From NCBI GenBank assembly GCA_028823175.1, contig JAPKBZ010000046.1:1-32316 (forward strand): 32,316 nucleotides of DNA, written 5' to 3'. The position numbers and the translations under genes are program-made. Below, in pieces: positions 1,030-21,809 of this stretch; the first letter of the stretch is position 1, and each line of letters opens with the position of its first letter. The notes beneath the pieces are model-generated. The model worked only from the letters and a program-made list of their open reading frames with translations. It was not told the DNA's origin and searched no databases. This DNA comes from Myxococcota bacterium (GTDB lineage: Bacteria > Myxococcota_A > UBA9160 > UBA4427).

Positions 1030-3285
1030 TTGAGTTTGCGCACCACCCTCTTGATCGCGTTGGCTGTTAGCCTCGGGCTGGTGGGCGCCGTGGGCCTGGG
1101 CTCGTATTGGCTCAGCCGCGACCTCGAGGCCCGGGTCGACGCGCTGCAATCGCGATCGGGCACCGATCTCGCCCGCATCGACGTGCGCCAGCACGGCCTC
1201 GAGATCGAGGGCACCTGGGATAACGCGGGCTTCTTTCTCGCCCGGGAAATGGACGTGCTGCCCCGCATTCGGCGGCCCAAACTGCGCGGCCCCCTGCAAG
1301 CCGTCGACCCCGAGGCCGGCACGCTCCGGCTCTACGGCACCCCCATCGAGGTCGAGGCGGAAACCGAAATCACCTCGGCCACGGGCCAGGCCGAGAGCCT
1401 GGCCGATCTGCGCCCGGGCCAGCGCGTAGAGATCAGCGCCCGGGTGAGCGCGGGCCGCTGGCAGGCGCGCAAGATCAAGACCGGGGGCATCAAGGCGAGC
1501 AACAAGATCAAGGGCACCCCGACCCGGGTCGAGATCGACCTCGACGGCGGCTTCATCGAACTCCACGGCCTGCGCGTCGTGCTCGCCCCGGCCTCGGAAG
1601 CCTCAGCGGATAGCCCCCTGCGCGAGCTGCGCCTCACGAGCCTGGTGGTCATCGTGCTCCAGGATCTGCAATCCGCCGCGCGTGCGCTGGTGGCCGCGCC
1701 CGGCCACACGGATGCGGCCACGGCGGCGGCGGATCAGTTGGCTCAAGCCCTCGAGGCCCTGGGCTATTACGTCGACCAGTTGGAGCCGGCCCCGGCGGCA
1801 GCCGGCGGCGGCGAGCCCCCGGCCTCGTCCCTGGCCCGGCTCGGCCAGGAACTGAACGATCAGGCCGCGACGCTTCGGGGCCTGGTGAAGAGCGACCCGG
1901 CCGCGGCCGGCCGCTGGGTCGAAGAAGAGATCGAGCCCCAGATCGAGCGACGCATCATCCCGGCGGTCTACGCCTTGCGCGGCGAAGCCGAGGAATCCCT
2001 CAACGATCAGATCCGCGAGATCGGGATTCGCGCCAGCACGGCCCTGAGCGCGGCCATGGCCCTGGGCGGCTTCGCCGTGCTCGGTGTGCTCGGCCTCGGT
2101 GCGCTTCTCTACCGCGCCATCGACACCCCGGTTCGCGCCCTGCACGACGCGGCCGTCGAGCTCGGGCACGGGCATCTCGAAACCCGGGTCCACCTGCGCG
2201 CCAAGGGCGAGTTCGGCGTTCTCGCCGAGGCCTTCAACCGCATGGCCGAAGAGCTCGCGAGCACCACGGTCTCGGTCACGAGCCTCGAGAGCATCTTCGA
2301 TTCCATGGCGGGCATCCTGATCATGCTCGGCCCCGATCGCCGCATCCTCAACATCAATCGCGGCGCCCTCGAGTTCCTGGGCTATCCGCACGAAGAGCTC
2401 GTGGGCCGACCCTTCGATCAGGTCTGTGCACGCTCGGCCGATGCATCCTTGGAGAAGGCCCTGCGCCGGGCCGAAGAGGGCCTGGCCACGGTCGAGGAGC
2501 TCACCCTGGTGCGGCGCAATGGCTCGGCGGTGCTCGTGTCGTTTTCCGGGGCCAGCGTCCGGTCGGCCGGGGGCGCGGTCCAGGGCTATGTCTGCATCGC
2601 CCAGGATCTCACCGAGCACAAGCAGATCGAAGAGCAGGTTCGCTCCTCCCTCGCCGAGAAGGAGATCTTGCTCCGAGAGCTGCACCACCGGGTCAAGAAC
2701 AACATGCAGGTGGTTTCGAGCCTGCTCGCCGTTCAGGCCGCCTACTCATCGGATCCCCACACCACGCACGAACTCGAGGAAAGCCAGGGGCGGATCCAAT
2801 CCATGGCCCTGATCCACGAGCAGCTCCACCATTCGTCCGATCTGGCCCGCCTGGACGTCGGGGCCTACCTCGACTCCCTGGCCGCGCACCTCGCCCGCTC
2901 CTTCGGCGCGCCCGGGGCCATCGCGGTGAGTGTCGACCTCAAGCGGCCGCCCCCGGATCTCGACCAGGCCCTGGTCTGCGGCCTGATCGTCAACGAACTC
3001 GTGACCAACGCTCTCAAGCACGCCCTCAAACACGCCGCCGGGGGCGAGGGCCAGATCCACATCGACCTGCACGACGAGGCCAACGGGGGGCGAGTGCTCG
3101 AGGTTCGGGACAACGGCCCGGGCATGGATGCGGCCGCCCTCGAAGAGGAGCGAACCCTGGGGCTGACCCTTGTGACGACCCTGGCCAAGCAACTCGCCGG
3201 CCGGGTCAGCGTCGACACCCGCCAGGGCACGACTTTTCGGATCGAGTTTCCCGCGACGGAAGCCGGGCAGGAGACCCGGGGATGA
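1030..3285 (+). CDS. Membrane sensor histidine kinase (HisKA_2 type) with DUF5666-like sensor, HAMP and PAS
   Basis: This 751-aa protein should autophosphorylate on histidine and pass phosphate to a receiver domain. Its order is: TM1 (about 5-27), an extracytoplasmic region with a beta-rich DUF5666-like segment (about 82-185) and a helical part, TM2 (about 337-362), HAMP (365-413) and PAS (about 418-535). The dimerisation helix follows, with ELHHRVKNN at 550-558; H553 aligns with the phosphoacceptor of the HisKA_2/HWE group. The HATPase domain (655-745) carries NELVTNALKH and DNGPGMD. TTG at 1030 is chosen for the AGGAGGA upstream. The stop overlaps the next start as ATGA at 3282, so the two are translationally coupled and the receiver fused to a glycosyltransferase is the obvious partner. 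A DUF5666-like domain in a kinase sensor is unusual. The signal sensed is unknown. Confidence 0.9.
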   Translation: MSLRTTLLIALAVSLGLVGAVGLGSYWLSRDLEARVDALQSRSGTDLARIDVRQHGLEIEGTWDNAGFFLAREMDVLPRIRRPKLRGPLQAVDPEAGTLRLYGTPIEVEAETEITSATGQAESLADLRPGQRVEISARVSAGRWQARKIKTGGIKASNKIKGTPTRVEIDLDGGFIELHGLRVVLAPASEASADSPLRELRLTSLVVIVLQDLQSAARALVAAPGHTDAATAAADQLAQALEALGYYVDQLEPAPAAAGGGEPPASSLARLGQELNDQAATLRGLVKSDPAAAGRWVEEEIEPQIERRIIPAVYALRGEAEESLNDQIREIGIRASTALSAAMALGGFAVLGVLGLGALLYRAIDTPVRALHDAAVELGHGHLETRVHLRAKGEFGVLAEAFNRMAEELASTTVSVTSLESIFDSMAGILIMLGPDRRILNINRGALEFLGYPHEELVGRPFDQVCARSADASLEKALRRAEEGLATVEELTLVRRNGSAVLVSFSGASVRSAGGAVQGYVCIAQDLTEHKQIEEQVRSSLAEKEILLRELHHRVKNNMQVVSSLLAVQAAYSSDPHTTHELEESQGRIQSMALIHEQLHHSSDLARLDVGAYLDSLAAHLARSFGAPGAIAVSVDLKRPPPDLDQALVCGLIVNELVTNALKHALKHAAGGEGQIHIDLHDEANGGRVLEVRDNGPGMDAAALEEERTLGLTLVTTLAKQLAGRVSVDTRQGTTFRIEFPATEAGQETRG

Positions 3286-5009
3286 GCGCGAACGCGAACG
3301 CGAAAAAGATCTTGATCGTCGAAGACGAGATGCTCGTGCAATTGCATCTCGACCGCACGGTGGTCGGCATGGGGCACCAGGTCACCGCCAAGGTCCGCAC
3401 CGCTGCCGAGGCCATCGAGGCCGCCGAGCGTGAGCGCCCGGACCTGGCCCTCATCGACATCAATCTGCCCGGGCCCCGAGACGGGATCAGCCTGGCCCGG
3501 GAACTCATCGAGCGCTTCGGCTCGACCATCGTTTTCGCCACCGCCCACGCCGACGAGGAGACCCTCGACCGCGCGCAATCCGTGAGGGCCTCGGGCTATC
3601 TCGTCAAACCCTTTACCAGCGCCGAGCTGCGCGCGGCGATCAGCACGGCGGTGGCTTTTGAAACCGCCCATGCGGGCGCTCTTAGCAACGCCCATAGCGA
3701 CGCCGACGCCCGTACCAACCCCACAGCCGGGCCAGGGCGCACCGGCCGCGAAGAGCGGCCGTTCGGGCCGGGCACCCGGATGCTCTTTTATTCCCATGAC
3801 ACCTTCGGCATGGGGCATCTCCAGCGCTCGCTCAAATTGATCCAGGCCATCATGACCGGCCACCCCGACATCTCGCTGCTCCTGGTCACGGGCTCTTCGG
3901 TGGTCCATCGCTACGAGCTGCCCGCCGGGGCCGACTACGTCAAGTTGCCCGCGGTCCAGAAGGTGGGCAGCGACGATTACGCGTCGCGCAGCCTGTTGAT
4001 GTCGGGTTCCGGGGTGCGCAACCTGCGCACCAACTTGCTGCTTCGCATCGTGCGCGATTATGATCCCAACGTGCTCTTTGTCGATCACTCCCCCGCCGGC
4101 ATGCAGGGCGAAATGGTGCCCGCCCTCGAATGGCTGAGCGATCGTACCCGTTGCCGGCGCGTGCTCGGCATGCGCGATGTCACCGACGACGCCGCCAACG
4201 TGCGCGCCCTGTGGAAGAAGCAGGGGATCGACGACCTGATCGCCCGCCACTACGACGATCTCCTGATCTTCGGGGACAAGGCGATCTACGACCCCGTGCA
4301 GGAATACGGGCTGGGAAATCAGGCCGGTCCTAGGATCGAATACATGGGCTTCGTCTGCGAGAACTCCGAACCCGCGCCCGCGCCAAAGGCCTCACCCGGC
4401 GACCGACCCAAGGTGGCCGTCTCCATCGGCGGGGGCGACGGCGCGGTCTCCACCCTTTTCGCCTATCTCGACATGCTCGAGGAATTCGGCGACGCCCTGG
4501 ACGTCGAGAGCGAGATCCTCACCGGGCCCCTGATCGCCGACGACGACCTGTACAAGGTCCGCGAGCGCGCCCGGAACCTGCCCGTCACGATCACCAAATT
4601 CCTGCCCTCGACGGCTGAGTTCTTCGCCCACGCCGATCTCGTGGTGGCCACGGCGGGGTACAACACCGTGACCCAGATCTTCCGCTACGCAAAGCGCGCG
4701 CTGCTGGTGCCCCGGGTGCTCTACCGCCGGGAGCAACTCGTCCGATCCCGGCGTCTCGAGGAACTCGGGCTGGTGCACTGCTTGCACCCCATGGATATTT
4801 CACCCCAAAGAATGCACGCGGTGCTCGCCCGGGCCCTGGCCGACCCGGCCCAGCCCCTGGAGGAAGCCCGGCGCAGCGGCGCCATGCGCCTGGACGGCGC
4901 CGAGCGCTTCGCCGAGCATTGCGGCAAGTTCACGGTCAGCGTAGATCCAGGGGAGGACGCCGCGGCCGGGGGAAAAGATCCGGAACAAAATCCGGGAACG
5001 GAAGACTGA
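3282..5009 (+). CDS. Response-regulator receiver fused to MurG-like GT-B glycosyltransferase
   Basis: This 575-aa fusion has an N-terminal receiver domain (about 8-128). All key residues are present: E14-D15 acidic pocket, phosphoacceptor D59 in LIDINLPG, T87 and K109 in LVKPF. A roughly 35-residue linker rich in Ala, Thr and Pro follows. From about 167 (MLFYSHDTFGMGHLQRS) the protein matches a MurG/GT28-like predicted glycosyltransferase. Its Gly-rich entry is VSIGGGDG, and the nucleotide-sugar site motif TAGYNTVTQIF lies near 460. The start overlaps the upstream kinase stop (ATGA). The inference is that phosphorylation controls sugar transfer directly. Donor and acceptor cannot be read from the sequence. 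The frame is continuous through the linker, so I see no frameshift artefact. Confidence 0.88.
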   Translation: MSANANAKKILIVEDEMLVQLHLDRTVVGMGHQVTAKVRTAAEAIEAAERERPDLALIDINLPGPRDGISLARELIERFGSTIVFATAHADEETLDRAQSVRASGYLVKPFTSAELRAAISTAVAFETAHAGALSNAHSDADARTNPTAGPGRTGREERPFGPGTRMLFYSHDTFGMGHLQRSLKLIQAIMTGHPDISLLLVTGSSVVHRYELPAGADYVKLPAVQKVGSDDYASRSLLMSGSGVRNLRTNLLLRIVRDYDPNVLFVDHSPAGMQGEMVPALEWLSDRTRCRRVLGMRDVTDDAANVRALWKKQGIDDLIARHYDDLLIFGDKAIYDPVQEYGLGNQAGPRIEYMGFVCENSEPAPAPKASPGDRPKVAVSIGGGDGAVSTLFAYLDMLEEFGDALDVESEILTGPLIADDDLYKVRERARNLPVTITKFLPSTAEFFAHADLVVATAGYNTVTQIFRYAKRALLVPRVLYRREQLVRSRRLEELGLVHCLHPMDISPQRMHAVLARALADPAQPLEEARRSGAMRLDGAERFAEHCGKFTVSVDPGEDAAAGGKDPEQNPGTED

Positions 5010-5030
5010 AAACGGAAGAGGGTGGTTCGG

Positions 5031-6290
5031 GTGACGGAAAAGGAAACTCAAGCATCGGAAGCGGCCGCGGGGGCTCCCCGGGTGGGCTACGTGGTCAAGC
5101 GCTACCCGCGCTACTCCGAGACTTTCATTGTCAACGAATTACTCGCCCACCAGGAGGCGGGCGCCCCCGTCGACATCTTCGCCCTGCGCCCCTCCAACGA
5201 CAGCCATTTCCAGGACGCCATCGCCCGGGTGCGCTCCCCGGTCACCTTCCTGCCCCATTACGGCGTCAAGGCCAAGCATTTTTGGAAGACCCTTCACGAT
5301 TTTCGCAACGATATGAGCCGCCTTGAAACGGGGCTCGAAGCGGCCTGGGGCGGTGAGGTTGTCGAAGTGCGCCAGGCCATGATCCTGGCCCAGGCCGTCC
5401 TGAAGCGCGGCATCGATCACCTGCACGCGCATTTCGCCACGTCGTCGACCTCGGTGGCGCGCATGGCCGCGCGCTTCGCGGGCATCGGCTTCAGCTTCAC
5501 CGCCCACGCCAAAGATATCTTTCACGAGGACGTCGACCCGGGCGAGCTACTCACCAAGCTCAGCGACGCCGACGCCGTGGTCACGGTCAGCGATTTTAAC
5601 GTGGCGCACCTCGAAGAGGTGAGCGCCGGGCACCCCATCAACCTCGTGCGCATCTACAACGGCCTCGATCTCGAGACCTTTGGCTACGCCTCGCCCCTCG
5701 AGCGCGCACCGCGCATCATCGCCGTCGGGCGATTGGTCGAGAAGAAGGGCTTCGACGTTCTCATCGACGCTTGCGCGATCCTCGAGCGCCGGGGAGTCGC
5801 GTTCGAATGCGACATCATCGGCACCGGCGATCTCGAGGGCAAACTGCGGCGGCAGATCGAAGGCGCCGAGCTCCAGGGCCGGGTGCGCTTGCCCGGGCCC
5901 CTGGCGCAAAGCGAACTGCGCGCCCAGATCCAGGGCGCCGCCGTCATGGCCGCGCCCTGCATCGTCGGCGGCGACGGAAACCGCGACGGCCTGCCCACGA
6001 CCCTGCTCGAGGCCATGGCCCTGGGCACGCCCAGCGTCGCTACCGACGTCACGGGCATCCCCGAGGCGATCCGTCACGACGAGACCGGCGTGATCGTCGC
6101 CCAACACGATGCCGAGGCTCTGGCCGGCGCCCTTGAAGACCTGCTCGGCAACCCCGGAAAACGCGAAGCCCTGGCCCTGAAGGCCCGCACCCTCGTCGAG
6201 GACGAGTTCAATGTCACGGTGAGCGCCCAGCGCCTGCGCGCGGTCTTCGCGCAATCCGTGGCGCGCCGGGCCGAAGCGGGGAGCCGCTGA
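5031..6290 (+). CDS. Glycosyltransferase family 4 (WcaL/AmsK-like)
   Basis: A GT-B fold retaining glycosyltransferase of about 419 aa. The N-terminal domain shows VGYVVKRYPRYSETFIVNE, typical of exopolysaccharide GT4 enzymes of the WcaL group. The C-terminal domain shows VGRLVEKKGFDVLIDA (donor phosphate binding) and DGLPTTLLEAMALG, the E-x7-E-type motif with Asp at its first position. I chose GTG at 5031 because GAGGG at 5018-5022 sits 8 nt before it. GTG at 5022 in the same frame would add three residues. It begins about 20 nt after the receiver-GT stop, and its own stop overlaps the next start by one base (TGATG). It probably elongates a glycan in the cytoplasm; the acceptor is unknown. 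Confidence 0.88.
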   Translation: MTEKETQASEAAAGAPRVGYVVKRYPRYSETFIVNELLAHQEAGAPVDIFALRPSNDSHFQDAIARVRSPVTFLPHYGVKAKHFWKTLHDFRNDMSRLETGLEAAWGGEVVEVRQAMILAQAVLKRGIDHLHAHFATSSTSVARMAARFAGIGFSFTAHAKDIFHEDVDPGELLTKLSDADAVVTVSDFNVAHLEEVSAGHPINLVRIYNGLDLETFGYASPLERAPRIIAVGRLVEKKGFDVLIDACAILERRGVAFECDIIGTGDLEGKLRRQIEGAELQGRVRLPGPLAQSELRAQIQGAAVMAAPCIVGGDGNRDGLPTTLLEAMALGTPSVATDVTGIPEAIRHDETGVIVAQHDAEALAGALEDLLGNPGKREALALKARTLVEDEFNVTVSAQRLRAVFAQSVARRAEAGSR

Positions 6291-7456
6291 TGCGTGTCGC
6301 CTACGTGAGCGCCGACCCGGGCGTGCCGGTCTTCGGTTCCAAGGGATGCTCGGTGCACGTCCAAGAGGTGATCCGCGCCATGCGCCGGGCCGGGGTCGAA
6401 GTCGAACTCCACACCGTGCGCACCGGGGGCACCGCGCCGGCGGATCTCGAGAGCGTCGAGGTCTTCAAGATCGCTTTCGATCGCAAGGGCGGGCGGGAAG
6501 CCATCGAGGAGCGCGGCCTGGCGGCCAATGCCGACTTCACCGCCTCGCTTTCGGGCCGGCCGGCCTACGACATGGTCTACGAACGCTATTCGCTCTGGGG
6601 CCAGGCGGGCATGGAATTCGCGCGCGGCGCCGGGCTGCCCGGCATCCTCGAGGTCAATGCGCCTCTCGTGGAAGAGCAAGCCACCCACCGCACCCTCGTG
6701 CACCGCGACGAAGCCGAAGCCATCGCGACCCGGGTCTTCGGCCTGGCCAGCGGCGTGGTCGCGGTCTCGAGCGAAGCCCGGGAATACGTGTGCGCGAATG
6801 GGGGCGCCCCGGAAAGGGCGCACGTGGTTCCCAATGGCGTCGACCCCGGGCGCTTTGTACCCGCAGCGGCCGACGCCCCCGAGCGCCCGTTCAGCGTGGG
6901 CTTCGTCGGCAGCCTCAAGCCCTGGCACGATCTCACGACCCTGGTGGCGGGCTACGCGCTCCTGCTCGAGAGCCAGCCCGAGGCCCGGCTCATCATCGTG
7001 GGCGACGGGCCCGAACGCGAGCGCGTCGAAGAAAGCTTGGCCGCCGCTGGCGCCGAAGCGGGCGTGACCTTTTCCGGGGCCATCGCTCCGGCCGAGGTTC
7101 CCCAATGGATTCAAACCATGGATGTCGGCCTCGCCCCCTATGCCCGGGACGCCGCGCGCTATTTCTCACCGCTCAAGGTGCTCGAGTACATGGCCTCGGG
7201 GATTCCCGTGGTGGGCAGCCGCACCGGACAAATTCCCGAACTCGTCGAGGAGGGCGTCGCCGGGCTCTTGCACGAGGCCGAAGACGCCGCCGGGCTCGCC
7301 CAAGCCATGGACACCCTGGCCCGGGATCCCGAGGCGCGCAGCCGCATGGGCCAAGCGGCCCGGCGCTCGGTCATCGCCGAGCACTCGTGGGATAGCGTAG
7401 TCGCCACCACCCTCGGCCTGGCCCGGGATGCCGGCGGCGACGGAGGAAACGCCTGA
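6290..7456 (+). CDS. Glycosyltransferase family 4
   Basis: A 388-aa GT4 glycosyltransferase. The N-terminal Rossmann half begins MRVAYVSADPGVPVFGSKG, which fits an acceptor-binding GT-B domain. The C-terminal half has VGFVGSLKPWHDLTTL and FSPLKVLEYMASGIPVV, in which the Lys/Glu positions of the GT4 donor site are recognisable. ATG at 6290 overlaps the previous stop (TGATG), so translation is coupled. Its stop lies one base before the next ATG. It is the third glycosyltransferase in the operon; order of action and sugar specificity cannot be deduced. Confidence 0.88.
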   Translation: MRVAYVSADPGVPVFGSKGCSVHVQEVIRAMRRAGVEVELHTVRTGGTAPADLESVEVFKIAFDRKGGREAIEERGLAANADFTASLSGRPAYDMVYERYSLWGQAGMEFARGAGLPGILEVNAPLVEEQATHRTLVHRDEAEAIATRVFGLASGVVAVSSEAREYVCANGGAPERAHVVPNGVDPGRFVPAAADAPERPFSVGFVGSLKPWHDLTTLVAGYALLLESQPEARLIIVGDGPERERVEESLAAAGAEAGVTFSGAIAPAEVPQWIQTMDVGLAPYARDAARYFSPLKVLEYMASGIPVVGSRTGQIPELVEEGVAGLLHEAEDAAGLAQAMDTLARDPEARSRMGQAARRSVIAEHSWDSVVATTLGLARDAGGDGGNA

Positions 7457-7457
7457 G

Positions 7458-9305
7458 ATGGCCCGGCCCGAGAAACTTCGACAGAGCCTCCCCATGCTCC
7501 AGAGGTTGCTCGAACGCTTCGCCCCGGAACTGCGCAAGCAGCGGTGGGTGATCTCGGGGTCGTTCCTCGCGATCTTTGCCGAGGTCGGGTTTCGCCTGCT
7601 CGAACCCTGGCCCCTGGGCCTGATCGTCGACTCGGTGCTCCAAGTGGAAGCCAAGCCCGGAGTCCACGCCTCCAACCCCTTCTCGGCCCTGGATCCCTCG
7701 ACCCTGCTCTGGGTCGCGCCGATCATGCTCGTGGTCGTGGTCGCCGCCCGGGGGCTCACCGCCTACATCAGCGCGGTGGGCTTCGCCCTTGCCGGCAACC
7801 GCCTGGTCACCGTTGTCCGCCTAGCGCTCTATACCCGGCTGCAAGCGCTCTCGGTCGCCTTCCACCGCAGGACCCGGAGCGGCGACCTCATCGTCCGGGT
7901 CGTCGGCGACGTGGGCATGGTGCGCGAGGTCATCGTCACCGCCCTGCTTCCCCTGATCGGCAATGTGATAGTGCTCATCGGCATGGTGGTCGTGATGGCC
8001 CTCATGAACTGGAAGCTCGCCCTGGTGGCGTTCTGCACCGCGCCGCTCTTTTGGCTCTCCAGCGTGCGCCTGGGCCGGCGCATCCGGGTGGTCGCGAAAA
8101 AACAGCGTCGCCGAGAGGGTTCCCTGGCGAATCAAGCGGCCGAGATGCTCGGCGCGGTTCAGGTCGTCCAAGCCCTCTCCCTCGAGGATCAACTCGCCGC
8201 GGGCTTCGCCGCCCAAAATCAGGGGAGCCTGCGCGAGGGCGTTCAGGCCAAACGGCTTTCGGCGCGCCTCGAGCGCACGGTGGACGTGATCACCGGGATC
8301 TCCACCGCCCTCGTGCTCTTCGTCGGGGCCAAGATCGTGCTCTCCGGCGAACTCTCGCCGGGCGAGCTCGTCATCTTTCTTTCCTACCTCAAGAGCAGCT
8401 TTCGGCCGGTCCGCAATTTCGCCAAGTACACCGCGCGCATCTCGAAGGCCAGCGCTGCGGCCGAGCGCGTGCTCGAAGTGCTGGACAAGGAACCCGATAT
8501 CACCGAGAAGCCCGGCGCCCGGCCGGCGCCCGCCTTCGCGGGAGAGATCCGGTTCGAGCACGCCGACTTCCTTTATGACGAGCGCAGCCCGGTGCTGCGC
8601 GACATCACTTTCCAGGTTGCGCCCGGCGAACACGTCGCCATCGTGGGCGAGTCCGGGGTCGGTAAATCGACCTTGCTCGCCGCGATCCCCCGGCTCCACG
8701 ATCCCGCCGGCGGCCGGGTGCTGATCGACGGCGAGGACATCCAGGATTTCACCCTCGACTCCCTGCGCGGCCAGATCGTGGTGCTGCTCCAGGAAAGCGT
8801 GCTCTTCGCGGGAACCGTGCGTGAAAATATTGGCTTGGGGGCGCCCCACTCCAGCGACGAAGACATCGAGCGGGTGGCCGCCCTGGCCAACGCCCACGAT
8901 TTCATCGAGGCCTTGCCCGACGGCTACGACACCGTTGTCGGGGAGCGGGGCGAAAGCCTTTCGGCGGGCCAGAGGCAGCGCATCGCTATCGCCCGAGCGG
9001 CCCTGCGCTCGGCGCCCATCGCGATTCTCGACGAACCGCTGACAGGCCTCGACGAAGAGAATGCGCGCTCGGTGCGCGATGCCCTGAGTCGCCTGACCGA
9101 GGGCCGAACCTGCTTGCTTATCAGCCACGACCTTAAGCACGCCGCCGGCTGCGATCGCATCGTTGTGCTCTCCGAGGAGGGCATCGCCGAGATCGGCACT
9201 CCCGCCGAGTTGCTGGCCCAAGGCGGCGCTTACGCGCAGATGGTGCGCGCCTCGGAAGCCGGGGCCTCGCCTGCGACTCGGGAGAAGCATGCCGAAGACA
9301 CCTGA
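7458..9305 (+). CDS. Type I ABC exporter half-transporter (permease fused to ATPase)
   Basis: A 615-aa MsbA-like exporter, probably working as a homodimer in the inner membrane. The N-terminal half has about six hydrophobic segments, including RLLEPWPLGLIVDSVL and VIVLIGMVVVMALMNWKLA. The ATPase half has Walker A GESGVGKST (397-405), signature LSAGQ (501-505), Walker B ILDEP with E526, and the H-loop ISHD. The start at 7458 is chosen because GGAGG (7442-7446) lies 11 nt upstream and it gives a normal N-terminus; a longer frame from 7428 would overlap the GT4 gene. Its position after three glycosyltransferases suggests it moves a glycosylated product out of the cytoplasm. Substrate is inference only. 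Confidence 0.9.
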   Translation: MARPEKLRQSLPMLQRLLERFAPELRKQRWVISGSFLAIFAEVGFRLLEPWPLGLIVDSVLQVEAKPGVHASNPFSALDPSTLLWVAPIMLVVVVAARGLTAYISAVGFALAGNRLVTVVRLALYTRLQALSVAFHRRTRSGDLIVRVVGDVGMVREVIVTALLPLIGNVIVLIGMVVVMALMNWKLALVAFCTAPLFWLSSVRLGRRIRVVAKKQRRREGSLANQAAEMLGAVQVVQALSLEDQLAAGFAAQNQGSLREGVQAKRLSARLERTVDVITGISTALVLFVGAKIVLSGELSPGELVIFLSYLKSSFRPVRNFAKYTARISKASAAAERVLEVLDKEPDITEKPGARPAPAFAGEIRFEHADFLYDERSPVLRDITFQVAPGEHVAIVGESGVGKSTLLAAIPRLHDPAGGRVLIDGEDIQDFTLDSLRGQIVVLLQESVLFAGTVRENIGLGAPHSSDEDIERVAALANAHDFIEALPDGYDTVVGERGESLSAGQRQRIAIARAALRSAPIAILDEPLTGLDEENARSVRDALSRLTEGRTCLLISHDLKHAAGCDRIVVLSEEGIAEIGTPAELLAQGGAYAQMVRASEAGASPATREKHAEDT

Positions 9306-10614
9306 AAACGATCTGATCACTCGCGACTCGGGCCTGCCCGGGCTCGCCGCGATTCTCGACCCCAGTGTCATGGCGGCGCAGCTCGCCGAGGCCGGCGCCG
9401 AATTTGACGGGCAGATTGACGGGCAGCTCGACGGGCAACTCGGCGCCGAGGCCGAGAAGCTCGAGCTTCAATACCTGCGCTACAAGCCCGGCACCAATTG
9501 CCTGGCCGGCTACCGGCTCGGCACAGGGCCCGGCGCCCGGGTCTTCTACGCCAAGGCCTACGCCGGCGGCGGCGCCCAGGCCAAGCTCGACAAGGCCGAG
9601 GCCAAGGCCGAAAAGCGCCAGGGGCTCCGGCGTATTCGCATCGATCGCTTGGGCCTTGTGCTCTTCGAGTTTCCCGACGACGCCAAGCTCGATGCCCTGC
9701 AAAAATTGGCCCAGCCCGAATTGCGCCAGCGATTGCTGGCCCGCACCCTCGGCGACGACTCCATCGGCCAATCAGACGAACTCGAAACCCTGGCCTACAA
9801 GCCCGAGCGGCGCTACGTCGCCCGGCTGGTTCGCGCGGGCAAAGGCGAGCCGATCGTCTTCAAGTTCTACAGCCCCGAGCGCTACCGGGCCGCCCGCAAG
9901 GCCCACCGAGCGCTCGGCTCGGTTCCCGAAGAGATCCTGCTCCAGCGGCAATGCGGGGGCTCCAAGAGCTATGAGATGCTGGCCTTTGGCTGGCTGCAGG
10001 GGCCGACCCTGCGCGAGGCGCTCGATGCCGGTTCCCCCGTCAACATGGAAAGCGTGGGCGCCGCCATCGCCCGGCTGCACGCCCAGACCCTGCCCAAGCT
10101 GGCCCAGGAAGGCGTGCCGAATACCGGCGATGAACTCGGTGCCCTGGCCGGGACCCTCGGCTTCCTGCTCCCCGGCCTCGCCGACTCGGCCGAGCAGTTG
10201 GCCAAGCAGATCGCCGGGGCCCGGGCGGACGCCGGGGAAGAACTCGGCCTGCTTCACGGCGATCTCTACGACAAGCAAATCGTGCTGACCGAAAGCGGGG
10301 CGGGCTTGATCGATCTCGACGACGCCTGCATGGGCGACCCCCGGCGCGACCTCGGCCTTTGGATCGCCCACCTCGAGCGCGACCGGATCATGGGGCGCGG
10401 CCTGCCCGCCGTTGACGGCCTCGTGGGCGCCTTCCTCGAGGGCTACCAAGCGGTTCGGGGTCGGCCCCTGGCCGGCCTCGCTCCCTTTGTCGCCGAAGGA
10501 CTCTTTCGCCTGGCCCACCACCCGTTCCGGCGACAGAGCCCGGACTGGCCCGAACGAAGCGCCGAGATCCTCGAGCGAACCCGCGCCCTTCTCGCGGAGA
10601 GCGCCCACCCGTGA
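9289..10614 (+). CDS. APH-fold small-molecule kinase with apparently duplicated N-lobe segment
   Basis: A 441-aa protein of the aminoglycoside/choline kinase-like superfamily. The catalytic loop is LHGDLYDKQ with D325, and the metal-binding stretch is LIDLDD (342-345). The N-terminal region is longer than usual and contains two similar segments, one around YKPGTNC (Y65) and one around YKPERRY (Y170), as if the N-lobe were duplicated. A short repeat, DGQIDGQLDGQL, lies near 37-48. The start at 9289 (ATG) has GGAGA just upstream and overlaps the exporter gene by 17 nt. Antibiotic resistance is an unlikely role in this operon; phosphorylation of a sugar, lipid head group or amino-alcohol on the exported product is more plausible. 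Confidence 0.82.
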   Translation: MPKTPENDLITRDSGLPGLAAILDPSVMAAQLAEAGAEFDGQIDGQLDGQLGAEAEKLELQYLRYKPGTNCLAGYRLGTGPGARVFYAKAYAGGGAQAKLDKAEAKAEKRQGLRRIRIDRLGLVLFEFPDDAKLDALQKLAQPELRQRLLARTLGDDSIGQSDELETLAYKPERRYVARLVRAGKGEPIVFKFYSPERYRAARKAHRALGSVPEEILLQRQCGGSKSYEMLAFGWLQGPTLREALDAGSPVNMESVGAAIARLHAQTLPKLAQEGVPNTGDELGALAGTLGFLLPGLADSAEQLAKQIAGARADAGEELGLLHGDLYDKQIVLTESGAGLIDLDDACMGDPRRDLGLWIAHLERDRIMGRGLPAVDGLVGAFLEGYQAVRGRPLAGLAPFVAEGLFRLAHHPFRRQSPDWPERSAEILERTRALLAESAHP

Positions 10615-11615
10615 CGCCCAAGGAAATCAAGCCCGCCGCCGAAGATCCCAAGCTGCCCTGGATCCCCGAAGCCCTGAACCCGGTGCTTGCAACCGAACGC
10701 GTCGCGCCGGTGGTCGCCGAGGCCGCGGGCTGGCGCGAGGTTCCGGGCGTGCTCGCCGCGCGGCTCGTGCGCCATAAGCCCGGGCGGCGCTGCGTCATCG
10801 AGTACGAATTCGGCGCGAGGGCGGGCGCCCAGGCGGGCCCAGGCGTCTTCGCCAAGATGCGCGCCAAGGGCGCCGACCGGCGCACCCAGGAACTCCTCGA
10901 GGAACTCCGCCGGGCAGGACTCGAGCACGGGGCCGAAAGCCGAGTGGCCGTTCCCCGGCCCCTGGGCAGCCTTGATGCCTGGAACATGACCTTCCAGGAA
11001 GCCGCACCCGGCCGCCTGCTCAACGAAATGCTCCCGGAGCCCGATGCCGAAAGCCGCATGGCCCAGGTGGCCGAAGCCCTCGCGGCCCTGCACCAGAGCG
11101 GCGTAGCCCCAGAGCGCCGCCACAATCTCAACGATGAACTCGAGATCCTGCGCACCCGCCTCGACGACGCCGCCGAGCGCGCTCCCCATTGGAGGGCGCG
11201 CATCGAACGCGTGCGCGATGGCTGCACCGCCCGGGCAGCGCGCCTGCCCGAGGTCGGGCCAGCCGGCCTGCACCGGGATTTCTACCCCGATCAGGTCATG
11301 GTCGATGGGCCGCGCACCACCTTGCTCGATCTCGATCTCTACGCCGGGGGCGACCCCGCCCTCGATGTCGGAAATTTCTCGGCCCACCTCGCCGAGATCG
11401 CCCTGCGCACCCGGGGCGACTTGCGCGGCTACGAAGCCCTCGAGGGCGCGTTCGAAGCGCGCTACCTCGCCCTCGCCGGCGCTGGCCACGCCCAGGCGAT
11501 TCGGACCTACCGGCTGCTCACCCTCGCCCGGCATATCCAGCTCAGCCTGATCCTCGACGGCCGCGCCCAGACCAGCGAAGCAATCCTCGAAGCCTGCGAG
11601 GAAGAACTCGGCTAG
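10611..11615 (+). CDS. APH-fold small-molecule kinase
   Basis: A 334-aa second APH-fold kinase. The catalytic loop is LHRDFYPDQ with D223, and the downstream metal-binding motif is LLDLDL (239-243). The N-lobe contains RLVRHKPGRRCVIEYEFG, similar to the YKP segments of the upstream kinase, so the pair probably arose by duplication. GTG at 10611 overlaps the previous stop (GTGA), which couples translation. It is the last gene of the operon and ends 15 nt before the convergent porin gene. Substrate unknown; the context points to glycoconjugate phosphorylation. Confidence 0.82.
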   Translation: MTPKEIKPAAEDPKLPWIPEALNPVLATERVAPVVAEAAGWREVPGVLAARLVRHKPGRRCVIEYEFGARAGAQAGPGVFAKMRAKGADRRTQELLEELRRAGLEHGAESRVAVPRPLGSLDAWNMTFQEAAPGRLLNEMLPEPDAESRMAQVAEALAALHQSGVAPERRHNLNDELEILRTRLDDAAERAPHWRARIERVRDGCTARAARLPEVGPAGLHRDFYPDQVMVDGPRTTLLDLDLYAGGDPALDVGNFSAHLAEIALRTRGDLRGYEALEGAFEARYLALAGAGHAQAIRTYRLLTLARHIQLSLILDGRAQTSEAILEACEEELG

Positions 11616-11630: not shown

Positions 11631-13469
11631 TCAGAAGTTGTAACGGAAGCGGAAGGCGAAGAGATAGGAGAGGTCGCCCTTCTCGGGGCCGAAGGCGTCA
11701 CCGGGCCGGAAGATCGAGCCGACGATCTTGAACTCGAAAGGGTTCCAATCCTCGATGCCGAGGATCATGTCCCATTCCTGGCCGATATTCGGGCTGAGCC
11801 CCAAGGGATCGCGCTTGAAACCGACCTCGCGCATGAAGGGGGCGGCCTGGGCTTGCCGGTACCAGTGGTAGAGAAAATCGATAGAGCTCTTTTTGAGGAA
11901 GCGGAAACCGAAGCCCGTGGTGACGATGCCCAGGTTCGAGAGCTCGGGGTCGAGGAGTTCGCCGTAATAGCGAAAGCTCGCCACCCCGCGAAAGCGGTCG
12001 CTGTTGTCCTGGAAGCCGGTCTGCCGGAAACCCGTATCGTGGAGCTCGGTCATGTCCGCATCCCCGGAGCCGTAGGCATAGCCGAGGGTGATCGAGGGGC
12101 TCGCCTGGCCGGGCAGGATCCAAGTACCCCCGATGTCGATCCCACCCCCGGAGACGTCATGGGTATCGACCGCCGCCGCCTTACGCGCCCCTGTTTCCCC
12201 GGTGTAGTTGGTGTAGGTCTCGCTTCCGAAAACCCCCGCCGCCTCGAACCAATAGTTGATCCGGCCGTATTCCGGGATCTTCCAGCGCCCCTCCGCCGAG
12301 ATGCCCAGCCAGGTCAGATCCCCGTCGCTGTCATCTTCGTAGGTCACACAGCCCGTTCGAAAGAACGCCTCGGCTTCTGGAGGCAGCCCGGGCGGGAGAT
12401 CGATATCGGCCACGCATTGGGGATCCGCGGACTGCTGGTCCGAGTAGTCCTCGGTATGCAGAGCAAAGAGGCCCAGCTCCTGGCCACGCGCCCACGCCCA
12501 ACTCACCGAGCCGAGGATATGCACGACATCGTCGTCCTCGGGTTCGATCCCTCCGCGGTTGAGAACCACGGGGAAGAGCTCGTGGGCCACGGCGATTTCG
12601 GCGTGCACTTTTTCGAGATCGAAACGGAAGCGAACCGAATCGAAATCCTGATCCCACCACCATTCCCGAGAATCGAAATAGCGCTGGCGACCCACCTGGA
12701 GCCCGAAGGGGGAATCGAAGAGATTGCCGAGGTAAAGCCACATTTCGCCGCGTTCGACGAGCCAATCGTCACCGGTCACGACCGCATCCGATGAAACCAG
12801 GTTCCGCCAAAAGAATTTCATCTCGAGGTAGACCGACACCTGGTTGCTATACGCGTAGAAGAGATCGGTCTGGAGGCCCTGGTTGATGCGCCATTGATCG
12901 TCCCTGGGCGAAAGACCGCGGGCCTCGTCCTCGACATCGTCGAAGAAGCCGTCGCCGTCGATATCGTTGTTGTCCAGATCGAAATAATCGAAATCGAGCA
13001 GCTTCGACCCCTCATAACGCGGAAGTAATGTGTAACGACCGCCGAGCATCAGGGGCCGCCCGAAGAGCGGAACGATCAACTGTTTCTTCGGCCGCTCACG
13101 ATCGGGCCGCTTGATGAGAATCTCTTCGGGACGGGTCAGGGTGAGGCGGTCCGACGCCACCCGGCGAGCCTCCCGCCGCGGGTCGCTGGGCGGGGCGGCG
13201 GGCGGGGCGACAACAGGAGCGGTGTGCGGGGCGACAACAGCGGTGGCGGGCGGGGCGACAACAGCGGTGGCGGGCGGGGCGACAACAGCGGTGGCGGGCG
13301 GGGCGACAAGAGGACCGGGTGCATTCGGCGTCTCTTCGGCGACGGCCGCGACCGGAGTCGCCTCGGCGACCGTTTCGGCCAGGGGTGCCCCCACTGGATA
13401 CACCGGCCCCAATAGAACGAGGCCCAAGAGCAACTTCATACTGTAAATCTCTAATTTCGAAGGCTTCAT
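11631..13469 (-). CDS. Alginate-export-type outer-membrane porin with Pro/Ala repeat and Ca-type loop
   Basis: A 612-aa beta-barrel protein of the Alginate_exp/AlgE type. A signal peptide (KLLLGLVLLGPVYPVGAPLA) leads into a periplasmic segment of about five VVAPPATA-like octapeptides. Barrel strands follow (YTLLPRYEG, VYLEMKFFW, LQVGRQRY), ending in the outer-membrane signal FRFRYNF. At 166-178 there is an Asp-rich loop with DIDGDGFFDD, which resembles a calcium-binding loop. The start is ambiguous: ATG at 13469 or ATG at 13439, and the latter gives a compact signal peptide; neither has a clear ribosome binding site. It is convergent with the glycosyltransferase operon and divergent from the PEP-CTERM gene. 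It may let an anionic glycan or a small solute cross the outer membrane; family members vary in substrate. Confidence 0.8.
   Translation of the reverse strand: MKPSKLEIYSMKLLLGLVLLGPVYPVGAPLAETVAEATPVAAVAEETPNAPGPLVAPPATAVVAPPATAVVAPPATAVVAPHTAPVVAPPAAPPSDPRREARRVASDRLTLTRPEEILIKRPDRERPKKQLIVPLFGRPLMLGGRYTLLPRYEGSKLLDFDYFDLDNNDIDGDGFFDDVEDEARGLSPRDDQWRINQGLQTDLFYAYSNQVSVYLEMKFFWRNLVSSDAVVTGDDWLVERGEMWLYLGNLFDSPFGLQVGRQRYFDSREWWWDQDFDSVRFRFDLEKVHAEIAVAHELFPVVLNRGGIEPEDDDVVHILGSVSWAWARGQELGLFALHTEDYSDQQSADPQCVADIDLPPGLPPEAEAFFRTGCVTYEDDSDGDLTWLGISAEGRWKIPEYGRINYWFEAAGVFGSETYTNYTGETGARKAAAVDTHDVSGGGIDIGGTWILPGQASPSITLGYAYGSGDADMTELHDTGFRQTGFQDNSDRFRGVASFRYYGELLDPELSNLGIVTTGFGFRFLKKSSIDFLYHWYRQAQAAPFMREVGFKRDPLGLSPNIGQEWDMILGIEDWNPFEFKIVGSIFRPGDAFGPEKGDLSYLFAFRFRYNF
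13207..13313 (-). repeat. 24-bp tandem repeat coding for VVAPPATA units
   Basis: Three identical 24-bp units occupy 13231-13302, flanked by diverged copies on both sides. The repeats keep the reading frame and code for the octapeptide VVAPPATA in the periplasmic linker of the porin. The perfect copies suggest recent expansion and probable length variation between strains. Confidence 0.9.
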
Positions 13470-13666: not shown

Positions 13667-16018
13667 ATGCAAATCTCGACCCAAACCCGTTTATTCTGCC
13701 TCGTTCTGGGAGCTGGGTTCCTCATGTTCCCCGCCGGAGCCTGGGGCCTAAACCTCGACCACCCCATCATCACCGAGGTTTACCAGGAATCCGCTGTTCC
13801 CGGAGGACCGGCAACGACGGATCTGACGAATCCCAATACCCCCGATCAGGAATTCATCGAAATTTTCATTCCGCCCCTGGACGACCTTTCACCCACGCTC
13901 GACAAGGACGCGCTGAACCTGACTCTCTACGATATCGAAGGCGATGCGAGCAGCCCCGGGCTCTCCCAGGTCAACCTTCGGGTCGATCTGCCGACCTTCG
14001 ACCTCGATCCCAGCAACGGCTTGACCGGGCTGCCAAGGCCCCATACCGGGATCGTCGTCCTCGGCTGGGTTCAATACGATGGAAATCCGCCGACTGGCCT
14101 TTCGGGTTCACCAAACTCCCGTATCGCAATGATCGATGGCGGCATCACCTCGACCTCCAGCTTCACTTTCATCCCGCTCAACGGCGCCCAGTTCGAGGGA
14201 ACCTTCAACTTCCCCCTGCCCCTCGCGGTCTCGCATATCGACCTGGCATCGGACTCGATCACGGGGAAAATCGAGCAGGGATCTGGCGCTTACCTTCTGG
14301 TCAATCGAGATGATCCCGGGTACGTGGAACTCTGCGGGATCACCGACCCCGCGACCTGCGATTCGTTTCCCAATCTCGCGTCAGGAACCAAACTCGGAAT
14401 CTCCTGCTTGCTCGACGCCTTTGCAGCCAACGACGATGCCTCGTTCGCGGTCGATCAGCAGCCTTACCTGGCTCCGTCCGGTGATAATATCGACCTCGAA
14501 TTCGTTCTTCCCCGGGGAGGCGCTTTCAGTGCATGGGTGCCTCAGGTCCCCGAAGAGGGAAGCGGCTATCAACGCATCCTGATCGATCAGATAAAGACCA
14601 GCGAAGACGGCGTGCCTGGAAACGAGGACCCCGCCTTCGATGCTGTGACCGCCTATCGGCCGACCTCGAACGCCGGCCCCTTCTTTGCCACCCCGGGCTA
14701 CGCCGCTCTATCGACCAGCCCCGGAAAGCTCTCTGTCGCGATCACCCCGATGCAATTCTTCCAGGTTCTCAAGGAGACTCAGGCCAGGCCCGGGCTCATC
14801 GCCGCCAATATCGGCGGAGGCTTCGGTATCCAGACGGAATCAAGGCCTGGGCCGACCCGAGACCCCTCTGCCATGAACGCCAGCGTGGCCGAAAGCCTGA
14901 GCCTTCCCGTAGCGCAATCCAAAATCGCACCCTATTTCGACGTGGAAACCTTCTCGACCACACCCTTGGGACACAGCGAGTTCATTTCCGTCGAACTCGA
15001 CTCCACCACCCCTGCTCCGGGTAGCCCTCCCACCACCGACCCGCGCCATTGGAGAGGGGCCTACCTCGTGACCATCGATCCAACCACAGGCACCGATGCG
15101 GCGGGCCAACCCTTTGAGGGCACCGCGCTTTTCGCTCTCCAGGGCGTCCCAGTCACAGGAGGCGTCTTGAACCCGTTTTCCGCAACGAGCCTGGGAGACT
15201 CGATGCGGTATGACACCGTGAACTTCCGAGATTCTCGGGGCAATGGGGCCGCTCTGAGCGACCCCGCGACGAACCTTTCCGATCCCACAATCATCGAGCC
15301 CATGGTCGCGACCATGCCCACCGACCCGGCTCTCTTCATCAACCCACTTGGCACCGGCACCGACCTGGTCGACGTGGTCCTGAACTCCGCCGAAGTCGTG
15401 AGCGGAGCGACCAGTTATGCCAACAGCTTCAACGCGGCCAAGACCCTCGTTCAGGCGCGAAATTTCAGCCTGCCGGGAACGCCTACGACCGGCGGTTTCA
15501 CACCCAACGAGCGCATTCATTACGCCGATGCCAAGGGTGCCGCCGGAAAACTCTCAAACGGGTTGACCGATGTCATCACCAAACGCGACTTCGAAATCGC
15601 CCTGATCGACAGCCAACTCTCTCCCCTGGGCACCCTGGAAACCGGCGCCACCGACGATTTCGGCGTGGCGATTCGGGTCGAGCAGGTCGCACCCGGAGCC
15701 AGCGCTTCCGTAGGCGAGATCGTTTTCCTGAGCAGCATGGGCGGCCTCGAGGGAGCCGATCTCGACACCCTCGACGTTCCCCCCCATGAAAACCTTCTCA
15801 CCGTCACCTATCTCGACCTCGACGCCCTGAACACTGTGATGGGGATCGAAACCATCGATCGGGTCTACGTGATCGACGGCAGTGGTCGCGGCGAAGTCGA
15901 TATTGTCGAAGTCGTCGCGCTGCCCGAACCCGGCGCCGGTCTGGCCCTGAGCCTTGGGGCCCTAATCCTGGCAAGCCTGGAGCGCCGCAAGCGAAGGGGC
16001 AACTCGACCCGCTCGTAA
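13667..16018 (+). CDS. PEP-CTERM surface/secreted protein
   Basis: A 783-aa exported protein. The N-terminal signal peptide (about 1-27, ending GAWG) is followed by IITEVYQE...EFIEIF, which resembles the opening strands of a lamin-tail-like beta-sandwich. The C-terminus (about 750-780) has the tripartite PEP-CTERM signal: the motif LPEPGA, a hydrophobic helix (LALSLGALILASLE) and a basic tail RRKRR. This signal is recognised by an exosortase, which is not encoded here. The central region is rich in Thr, Pro, Asp and Gly, as expected of an extracellular matrix protein. Such proteins are typically tied to exopolysaccharide production, which fits the nearby glycosyltransferase operon. ATG at 13667 has only a weak ribosome binding site. 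Confidence 0.85.
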   Translation: MQISTQTRLFCLVLGAGFLMFPAGAWGLNLDHPIITEVYQESAVPGGPATTDLTNPNTPDQEFIEIFIPPLDDLSPTLDKDALNLTLYDIEGDASSPGLSQVNLRVDLPTFDLDPSNGLTGLPRPHTGIVVLGWVQYDGNPPTGLSGSPNSRIAMIDGGITSTSSFTFIPLNGAQFEGTFNFPLPLAVSHIDLASDSITGKIEQGSGAYLLVNRDDPGYVELCGITDPATCDSFPNLASGTKLGISCLLDAFAANDDASFAVDQQPYLAPSGDNIDLEFVLPRGGAFSAWVPQVPEEGSGYQRILIDQIKTSEDGVPGNEDPAFDAVTAYRPTSNAGPFFATPGYAALSTSPGKLSVAITPMQFFQVLKETQARPGLIAANIGGGFGIQTESRPGPTRDPSAMNASVAESLSLPVAQSKIAPYFDVETFSTTPLGHSEFISVELDSTTPAPGSPPTTDPRHWRGAYLVTIDPTTGTDAAGQPFEGTALFALQGVPVTGGVLNPFSATSLGDSMRYDTVNFRDSRGNGAALSDPATNLSDPTIIEPMVATMPTDPALFINPLGTGTDLVDVVLNSAEVVSGATSYANSFNAAKTLVQARNFSLPGTPTTGGFTPNERIHYADAKGAAGKLSNGLTDVITKRDFEIALIDSQLSPLGTLETGATDDFGVAIRVEQVAPGASASVGEIVFLSSMGGLEGADLDTLDVPPHENLLTVTYLDLDALNTVMGIETIDRVYVIDGSGRGEVDIVEVVALPEPGAGLALSLGALILASLERRKRRGNSTRS

Positions 16019-20321: not shown

Positions 20322-20983
20322 AAACGATACCCGTGACCCGTAACCGTCTGAATGAGCGGGGGGTCGAAGCAATCGACTTTGCGACGCAACCGCGCGATTT
20401 GAACCTCGAGGATATTGGTACCGGGGTCAAATTCCATATCCCAGACCTTCTTCAAGAGAACGGTCCGGTTGACCACCTCGCCGTCCGCCTCGACGAGTAC
20501 CCGGAGGAGGCGAAATTCCTGGTCCGTCGTCGTAATCTGGGTGCCGTTGCGTTCAACGAGCCGTTCGGCGAGGTCGATCTTGAGATCGGCCACCTGGAAC
20601 TCGGTCGGATTCACCTGCCGGCGCATGACCGCCTCGATCCGCGCCAGGAGTTCCTGAAACTCGAAGGGCTTGATCATGTAGTCGTCGGCGCCCATTTTCA
20701 GGCCCTTGACGCGCTGATCGACCTCTTGACGAGCGGTCAGGAAAATCACCGGGATCATATTTCCCGAATTCCGCAAATCCTGGAGAAATTCCCAGCCCGT
20801 CCGCCCCGGCATCATGACATCGAGCAGCATCAGATTGAGGGAGGGGCGTGCGGCCAAGACCGCTTCCGCCTCATCGGCGTTGGCGGCCGACTCCGTCATG
20901 ATGCCTAGGTCTTCGAGACCCGCCTTGACGAATTTTCGGAGCGTAATGTCGTCATCGACGACCAAGATCTGCGGTTTTTGCAT
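20300..20983 (-). CDS. OmpR-family response regulator
   Basis: A 227-aa transcription factor. The receiver domain (1-120) has acidic residues DDD (10-12), phosphoacceptor D55 in LLDVMMPG, T83 and K105 in IKPF. The C-terminal winged helix (about 130-225) contains LTTxE-like TTTDQEFRLLRVLVE and VQIARLRRKVD...GHGYRL. ATG at 20983 is preceded by AGGAA at 7-8 nt. It is the first gene of a two-gene operon with the overlapping kinase gene. Targets are unknown; the direct repeats in its own upstream region could be an autoregulatory site. Confidence 0.93.
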   Translation of the reverse strand: MQKPQILVVDDDITLRKFVKAGLEDLGIMTESAANADEAEAVLAARPSLNLMLLDVMMPGRTGWEFLQDLRNSGNMIPVIFLTARQEVDQRVKGLKMGADDYMIKPFEFQELLARIEAVMRRQVNPTEFQVADLKIDLAERLVERNGTQITTTDQEFRLLRVLVEADGEVVNRTVLLKKVWDMEFDPGTNILEVQIARLRRKVDCFDPPLIQTVTGHGYRLCSPLAN

Positions 20984-21407: not shown

Positions 21408-21809
21408 TCATCGATCCGAGCCGTGGTGACGTGCGTCCCTGAAATTCCAGAAAGCCCGAAGAGAGATAATCTGGGCCTCTTCGTCGAAGCGCATCACGTC
21501 GATCACATCGACCTCAGTGAGCCCGCCTTCGAGTTCCAAATGCAGGGTGAATGCCATGGCGGCCTCGTCCCCCGCCGTCGTCACAATCGGCCCATCGCGC
21601 CGAGGGCGGGGTTGGCTCGCGGCAAAACCCTCTCTAAAAAAAACCCGCACCGCGTCGATGCCGACGACATGGGTTCCCGGTGGGCCGCCAACCGGATCCT
21701 CGACGGAAATCGAATCCGCGAAGAGGCTCACCACCGCCTCCACATCTCCCGCTTCTACTCCCGCGAGATACTTGACCATTTGGGCTCTCATCCGGTCGCC
21801 CCTGGGCAT
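21408..21809 (-). CDS. Delta5-3-ketosteroid isomerase-like protein (SnoaL/NTF2 fold)
   Basis: A 133-aa cone-shaped NTF2-fold protein, very close in length to bacterial ketosteroid isomerase (about 125-131 aa). The catalytic residues of that enzyme are visible in order: Y14 in MVKYL, D38 in VEDPVGGPP and D104 in DVIDVMRFDE, followed by the family's RAFW near 118-121. ATG at 21809 is chosen because AGGAG lies 8 nt upstream; longer frames exist. It would shift the double bond of 3-oxo-delta5 steroids to delta4. A related small-molecule isomerase role is possible, but the conserved triad favours the steroid type. It is divergent from the acyl-CoA ligase gene, consistent with joint control. Confidence 0.82.
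   Translation of the reverse strand: MPRGDRMRAQMVKYLAGVEAGDVEAVVSLFADSISVEDPVGGPPGTHVVGIDAVRVFFREGFAASQPRPRRDGPIVTTAGDEAAMAFTLHLELEGGLTEVDVIDVMRFDEEAQIISLRAFWNFRDARHHGSDR

Follow-up and report, generated by a model that had tools for sequence, protein, structure and literature searches.

A candidate glycan synthesis and export cassette with a receiver-fused first glycosyltransferase in a Myxococcota bacterium

The 32,316-nucleotide stretch of DNA analysed here (the window) belongs to contig JAPKBZ010000046.1 of a Myxococcota bacterium (GCA_028823175.1), part of a 91% complete genome bin of 4.64 Mb in 235 contigs. Its analysis suggests, with a probability of roughly 0.55, that the operon at positions 1030 to 11615 and the AlgE-family outer-membrane barrel gene next to it form a conserved glycan synthesis and export cassette, in which the first transferase would be controlled by a phosphorelay and the product released by the AlgE-like barrel. 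The operon is real; its seven plus-strand genes were found where the original prediction, made from the sequence letters, had placed them. Coordinates and Pfam matches also bear out the predicted order of HisKA_2 kinase, receiver-glycosyltransferase fusion, two family 4 glycosyltransferases (GT4a and GT4b), ABC exporter and two APH-fold kinases (kinases 1 and 2), kinase 2 being recognised via its relative on an E. coli plasmid. Five of the six junctions overlap (by 4, 1, 29, 17 and 4 nt), as had been stated; with the later ATG as start of the ABC gene, the 29-nt overlap in front of it would turn into a 1-nt gap. The sixth, the gap before the GT4a gene, had been put at about 20 nt and is 12 or 21 nt, set by the choice of start (Table 1). 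The prediction overlooked the opposite-strand barrel gene, which is part of the set and ends 15 nt past the last operon stop. The seven-gene operon is thereby part of a larger locus, with the barrel, a PEP-CTERM-like protein and a sulfatase beyond it.

Recurrence of the cassette was followed with a profile of the GT28-type part of the fusion protein, which found at least 593 relatives in named species genomes, and the best 80 loci were kept. Downstream genes were counted in the 52 loci having at least 9 kb downstream, and upstream genes in the 48 having at least 8.5 kb upstream. The downstream flanks held, on the same strand, GT4a-like genes in 45 loci, GT4b-like genes in 18, type I ABC genes in 27, APH-like genes in 23 and AlgE-like genes in nine; upstream, on either strand, the corresponding numbers were 2 for GT4a-like, 2 for ABC and 0 for both APH-like and AlgE-like genes, GT4b not being counted. 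The core GT28-GT4a-GT4b-ABC-APH is present in 12 of the 52 loci, in the same order in each and in six named phyla: Zixibacteria (L014, L018, L019, L021), Actinomycetota (L023, with a second GT28-like gene in between), Cyanobacteria (L062, L088), Planctomycetota (L063, L089), Gemmatimonadota (L064) and Pseudomonadota (Motiliproteus, L075), the twelfth core locus being L079. The barrel accompanies eight of these 12 cores, and each of the nine loci whose AlgE-like gene passes the threshold has the ABC gene too. Among 5426 complete E. coli genomes, 18 have plasmids that carry the cassette (for example L009:5248-15426, plasmid p1RM9088) as the row GT28-GT4-GT4-ABC-APH-APH-AlgE-UDP-sugar dehydrogenase, and no chromosomal copy was found among these 5426 genomes. 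Plasmids of Paracoccus and Pseudorhodobacter also carry the set. The 12 core loci and the E. coli plasmids are counter-examples to a confinement of the gene set to this genome. A Candidatus Manganitrophus plasmid (L011:2729-19194) has a related glycan cluster, annotated with two APH, alginate lyase family, radical SAM and AlgE-like genes.

Among close relatives (78 other genomes searched), the GT28 part is 73% identical in G001, one of four same-genus genomes. The eight genes from the histidine kinase to the barrel are present in G001 in the same order and orientation at 48-79% identity (60% for the histidine kinase), and all ten genes are in order when the secreted protein and the sulfatase are counted. 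In G001 the homologue of the secreted protein is split into two open pieces (59% and 65% identity), and that of the sulfatase, 63% identical over 602 aa, is cut by the contig end. Between the window and G001, the eight genes show nonsynonymous divergence (dN) of 0.17-0.43 and synonymous divergence (dS) of 1.2-1.9, the latter near saturation; with dN well below dS, all eight are, as judged from these rates, under constraint. Three tRNA-Ser genes and one tRNA-Arg gene lie upstream of the G001 copy, and the window copy also adjoins tRNA-Ser genes, two of which stand directly upstream of the operon (229-594). In the same family (25 genomes), only G020 gave more than weak matches, in two partial pieces, and in an even sample of the phylum (282 genomes) a match above 180 bits was recorded in six, the window's genome included. 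With so few strong matches, the distribution of the locus is patchy within both family and phylum.

The receiver of the fusion protein matches PF00072 at 73.3 bits. In a large protein search the receiver stands N-terminal to the glycosyltransferase in 109 of the best 120 of 314 relatives, the 120 including the window's own protein. The linker between the two parts measures 141-160 residues in 84 of these 109, many with PAS domains, and 22-61 residues in the other 25. The position of the acceptor D59 is Asp in 108 of the 109 fused relatives and that of K109 is Lys in all of them; the window receiver keeps both the acceptor Asp and the conserved Lys, and thus has an intact acceptor site. A histidine kinase lies directly upstream of the receiver-GT28 gene in all six distinct loci examined (window, L123, L124, L013, L016, L017), and the window kinase is 40-43% identical over about 760 residues to the planctomycete kinases of L013, L016 and L017. 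This constant upstream kinase, along with recurrence of the gene order across phyla, supports the original proposal of a pathway under signal control for making and exporting a glycoconjugate. A kinase and an NtrC-type regulator are directly upstream in the three Zixibacteria cassettes examined (3/3), and an annotated kinase and regulator adjoin the Paracoccus set.

The periplasmic part of the sensor kinase is related to a domain of the barrels. Its residues 49-185 align with the L021 barrel in its N-terminal part (43% identity over 141 aa, E = 4e-31), and also match the barrels of L014 and L018 and a separate 244-aa open reading frame (ORF) just before the L019 barrel gene. Pfam calls DUF5666 in the window and L016 kinases, and in four of seven barrels of one scan (L018, L019, L021 and L089); the G001 kinase is borderline, at 26.2 bits in one scan (cut-off 27) and 28.4 in another. 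By Pfam, DUF5666 was found neither in the barrels of the window, G001, L063, L068 and the E. coli plasmid nor in the kinases of three Zixibacteria loci. Near the N-terminus of the window barrel (about 13180-13300, minus strand), where several related barrels carry the DUF5666-type domain, there are VAPPATA-like repeat units. At E up to 0.001, DUF5666 occurs at just two places in the whole genome, the kinase and the sulfatase of the window, that of the sulfatase scoring 22.1 bits in the genome scan (under the 27-bit cut-off) and 33 bits in the window scan; two of five DUF5666 stretches of G001 fall in its copy of the locus. The homology of the sensor to the domain of related barrels suggests that the kinase monitors the exported glycan. 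Because the DUF5666-type domain is shared, we infer that kinase, related barrels and sulfatase may all contact one periplasmic ligand, for which the glycan is the simplest candidate.

Phylogenetic trees disagree on the origin of the first enzyme. The ABC and GT4a trees place the window and G001 inside a clade of cassettes with a plain GT28 (support 100/100 and 100/99), which comprises cyanobacteria, Chloroflexota, Gemmatimonadota, planctomycetes and plasmids. In the GT28 tree they group with receiver-fused GT28s from two planctomycetes and from genome G061 (99/98), and then, in a wider group (98/93), with another fused GT28 and the plain GT28s of Zixibacteria cassettes, split from 13 plain cassette GT28s at 100/100. 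Constraining the window and G001 GT28s with those 13 was rejected by the approximately unbiased (AU) test (p = 0.0028), the constraint group having been picked after the first tree. For three planctomycete pairs of kinase and receiver-GT28, the next 10 kb downstream contain no cassette; the G061 pair stands on a 5.2-kb contig and has a kinase 1-like gene after it, at the contig end. The disagreement between the trees indicates that a kinase and receiver-transferase pair probably replaced the plain GT28 in the first slot of an older cassette. An alternative history, entry from a Zixibacteria-like cassette with the fusion arising later, is possible. On either history, the plain and the receiver-fused GT28 would do the same job.

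The barrel matches Pfam Alginate_exp (PF13372) at 103 bits against a cut-off of 25.2, and its profile matches Pseudomonas AlgE at 8.5e-32. A Foldseek search gave AlgE in all of rows 1-17 (E 1e-18 to 1e-21) and porins next at about 1e-9, with a structure model that is itself weak (predicted local distance difference test, pLDDT, 58.8). The Alginate_exp barrel is single-copy in each of the two genome bins (the window's and G001's), and in the versions from E. coli, Zixibacteria, planctomycetes and Motiliproteus it closely follows the kinases on the same strand. No Alginate_exp match was found in two cyanobacterial carriers, nor on the Paracoccus and Pseudorhodobacter plasmids. A UDP-sugar dehydrogenase-like gene occurs in the fetched flank of 12 of the 80 loci, including four of six Zixibacteria loci, and in only seven of the 27 long loci having the ABC gene. 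The barrel past the operon, together with the UDP-sugar dehydrogenase of other sets, points to a secreted, possibly uronic-acid-containing glycan.

As regards other export components, the Pfam family scans of the window covered 24 ORFs, among which neither a Wzx/Wzy-type flippase and polymerase nor a GT2 synthase family was found, the rest of the genome not having been searched for such a synthase. The window has no OPX protein (PF02563); the sole OPX match in this genome is on another contig (C158), 3.3 kb from an exosortase. OPX is present somewhere in 11 of the 15 genomes or records searched. It was not found in the carrier genomes of L064 (2.1 Mb) and L068 (4.2 Mb), as sequenced; the L064 genome is also without a barrel match, and the L068 set contains a single kinase and lacks a clear GT4a. 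OPX was likewise not found on the E. coli plasmid, and since an E. coli control chromosome has one, the host may supply it to the plasmid-borne cassette. These distributions make an export route without OPX possible.

The ABC exporter scores 409.9 bits with NCBIfam TIGR02203 (MsbA), its equivalog cut-off of 602 not being reached. It is a type I exporter (PF00664 and PF00005) and not an ABC-2 type permease; ABC transporter-dependent capsule export uses an ABC-2 pair. Kinase 1 matches Pfam APH at 49.9 bits, and in its structure model (pLDDT 85.8) residues 128-441 were matched to solved kinases by structural alignment. Kinase 2 has no Pfam match of its own; it shares the catalytic loop with kinase 1, and its relative on the E. 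coli plasmid matches Pfam APH (26.5 bits, cut-off 23.2). Both show the APH/eukaryotic-like small-molecule kinase fold with HxD and the Mg-binding Asp. The earlier label of small-molecule kinases is plausible. Aminoglycoside resistance kinases typically have an Asn in the catalytic loop, and both window kinases read HxDxxxxQ, with Gln where this Asn would stand. Among 53 APH-like catalytic loops of the loci there are 37 Gln, 13 Asn and 3 His, two further loop-pattern matches that are not catalytic loops having been left out; in the 12 core loci the numbers are 19, 2 and 1. In a kinase profile search maltokinase was recorded at 5e-7, level with APH(2'')-Id and ranking below the corramycin kinase at 2.7e-8. 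No maltokinase model was among the NCBIfam matches at E up to 1e-3, the library's content of such a model not having been checked. In the mycobacterial maltokinase Mak, Mg is bound by Gln310, after HGD 303-305, according to the relevant part of PMC4306142. By analogy with maltokinase, this loop is a hint that both APH-like kinases act on sugar substrates. A single 740-aa protein spans both kinases in the Paracoccus version, and both are in one reading frame on the Paracoccus (L010:10762-12984) and Pseudorhodobacter (L012:10507-12969) plasmids; the two therefore probably act as a pair.

Taken together, these features are consistent with a mechanism in which the kinase would read the periplasm through its DUF5666-type domain, likely by contacting the ligand that this domain contacts on related barrels; were that ligand the exported product, a product feedback loop would result. 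The kinase would phosphorylate the receiver, and phosphorylation of D59 would set the activity of the GT28 domain, which is predicted to add the first sugar to a membrane acceptor. The chain would then be extended in the cytoplasm by the two GT4 enzymes, and the APH-fold kinases may phosphorylate a sugar, either a free sugar feeding the pathway or the chain itself. The type I ABC exporter would flip the glycan out, the AlgE-like barrel would release it, and its trimming or modification may fall to the sulfatase-family enzyme encoded nearby.

The main competitor of this mechanism, judged unlikely though worth serious consideration, is the original view that the product of the operon is a phosphorylated glycolipid or a short oligosaccharide, which would then stay in the envelope, with the AlgE-like gene as a mere neighbour. 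This view had been drawn from the missing polymerase and flippase, and no polymerase, synthase or chain-length family was indeed matched by Pfam among the 24 ORFs; the exporter is MsbA-like, GT28 relatives such as MurG, which is among the matches obtained, use lipid acceptors, and the two cyanobacterial carriers and the Paracoccus and Pseudorhodobacter plasmids without an Alginate_exp match fit it as well. Against it stand the conserved place of the barrel in G001, its position close behind the kinases in the four other versions named above, and its single copy in both bins; with the barrel adjoining the operon and a UDP-sugar dehydrogenase joining other sets, the inference of a small product is not supported. 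An improbable variant concerns the control step: the receiver-transferase could be loosely regulated, as a scaffold or dimerisation switch, with the kinase mainly serving another regulator and the fusion a genomic accident. A second two-component pair does lie close by in the window, and we know of no allosteric site; against this reading stand the fusion in 109 of the best 120 relatives, the acceptor Asp in 108 of these 109, and the kinase directly upstream in six of six loci.

The kinases admit two further readings, both very improbable. Two APH-like kinases with an ABC exporter could be a drug-inactivation and efflux set: relatives are annotated as aminoglycoside phosphotransferases, and fold and profile searches both match antibiotic kinases, with the corramycin kinase ranking first in both. 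Against this stand the glycosyltransferase company, often with an AlgE-like barrel too, the maltokinase-like Gln in place of Asn, and the absence of antibiotic-kinase models from the NCBIfam matches. Membership in a class V lanthipeptide-like peptide-modification pathway is suggested by weak NCBIfam LxmK matches (25-30 bits) and by LxmK as the top VIA-align row for kinase 1. Those scores are, however, far under the 315-bit cut-off, the LxmK Z value is within 1 of that of methylthioribose kinase, which amounts to a tie, and no other lanthipeptide family occurs among the 24 ORFs scanned.

The features of the locus are collected in Table 1. For the 783-aa secreted protein, no NCBIfam match (E up to 5) and no Pfam match (1e-3) was obtained, and the PEP-CTERM model was unmatched; exosortase matches occur at four places elsewhere in the window's genome. 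The second two-component pair, a HisKA kinase and an OmpR-type regulator, is at 18921-20983, near the cassette. Beyond it, an acyl-CoA-type metabolism block (21408-28887) encodes an AMP-binding enzyme, a SnoaL-like protein, an epoxide hydrolase-like protein and two family III CoA-transferases, one of which is a double-domain protein, and the genes of a seryl-tRNA synthetase and of a SelB elongation factor overlap by 8 nt (29013-32298).

Table 1. Coordinates, strand and basis of assignment of the locus features in the window
Feature	Position	Strand	Basis
Histidine kinase: periplasmic sensor, HAMP, PAS, HisKA_2, HATPase_c	1030..3285	+	Pfam
Kinase sensor segment, residues 49-185, contains DUF5666 (1285-1479)	1174..1584	+	Pfam; homology to N-terminal domain of AlgE-like barrel
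Receiver (3309-3641) fused to COG4671/GT28-type glycosyltransferase (about 3777-5006; GT28 C-terminal domain)	3282..5009	+	Pfam
Glycosyltransferase family 4, GT4a	5022..6290 (or start 5031)	+	Pfam; best NCBIfam EpsE/WcaL, under their cut-offs
Glycosyltransferase family 4, GT4b	6290..7456	+	Pfam
MsbA-like type I ABC exporter	7428..9305 (or start 7458)	+	Pfam ABC_membrane and ABC_tran
APH-fold kinase 1, loop HGDLYDKQ, extra N-lobe-like segment (about residues 1-128)	9289..10614	+	Pfam APH
APH-like kinase 2, loop HRDFYPDQ	10611..11615	+	Alignment; Pfam APH match of E. coli plasmid relative
AlgE-family outer-membrane barrel, 612 residues, convergent with operon	11631..13469	-	Pfam Alginate_exp
Secreted protein, 783 aa, PEP-CTERM-like tail	13667..16018	+	Tail judged by eye
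Sulfatase-family enzyme with DUF5666 segment	16064..18175	-	Pfam Sulfatase (163 bits), DUF5666 (33 bits)

If the proposed cassette is real, the direct target of a two-component system is a glycosyltransferase, and envelope glycans could change without a transcription delay. The scattered GT28-GT4-ABC-APH sets of Planctomycetota, Zixibacteria, Cyanobacteria, Pseudomonadota and E. coli plasmids would then be one recognisable system, and the apparent swap of a plain for a kinase-linked GT28 in the same slot would offer a natural comparison of unregulated and regulated versions. A stronger proposal, put forward tentatively and on balance doubtful, is that of a separate secretion route running from glycosyltransferases through a type I ABC exporter to an AlgE-like barrel, without OPX, synthase or Wzx/Wzy, whose committed step would be governed not by transcription or c-di-GMP but by a kinase that phosphorylates the first glycosyltransferase and senses the exported glycan through a domain of the kind found on related barrels. 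Searches of the open-licence literature on the gene set, on receiver-transferase fusions and on DUF5666 gave no description of this set among the papers listed, and those on the gene set gave no homologous cluster with a defined product, in line with the earlier statement that no characterised pathway has this exact set. Response regulators with a transferase as output have a precedent in the receiver-BcsA-like glycosyltransferase of Methanobacteriaceae described in a section of PMC5847659; the proposed glycan export cassette with direct phosphorelay wiring would be new.

That fusion, MTH_548, resembles the window protein in being a response regulator with a glycosyltransferase output, but it is archaeal, belongs to the PF13641 family and has no linked export cassette mentioned in section 14 of PMC5847659. 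The window kinases resemble maltokinase Mak in the APH/eukaryotic-like kinase fold and in the Gln at the HxDxxxxQ position, which binds Mg in Mak (PMC4306142, in part); unlike Mak, they are paired, kinase 1 has an extra N-lobe-like part, and the context is one of transferases and export. Outer-membrane export routes, as outlined in part of PMC9601211, include OPX proteins, the barrels of synthase-dependent systems, and a translocon in which a short OPX protein is combined with an AlgE-like barrel. With ABC transporter-dependent export of capsule and O-antigen, which employs PCP and OPX proteins (PMC9601211, same part), the window shares cytoplasmic synthesis by glycosyltransferases followed by an ABC transporter; it differs in the type I exporter fold and in having no OPX in the locus. 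The Myxococcus EpsX/EpsY OPX/beta-barrel translocon is similar in that its AlgE-like barrel is outside the synthase class, whereas EpsX/EpsY is Wzx/Wzy-dependent with a short OPX partner (PMC9601211, same part) and the window has no OPX match. As compared to synthase-dependent export of alginate, the window ORFs are without a GT2 synthase, the inner-membrane step is assigned to a type I ABC exporter and the transferases are of the GT28 and GT4 families, but the barrel is of the AlgE family and conserves its GRQ, GSG, FxQTGxxxN and GE...ELSNL stretches.

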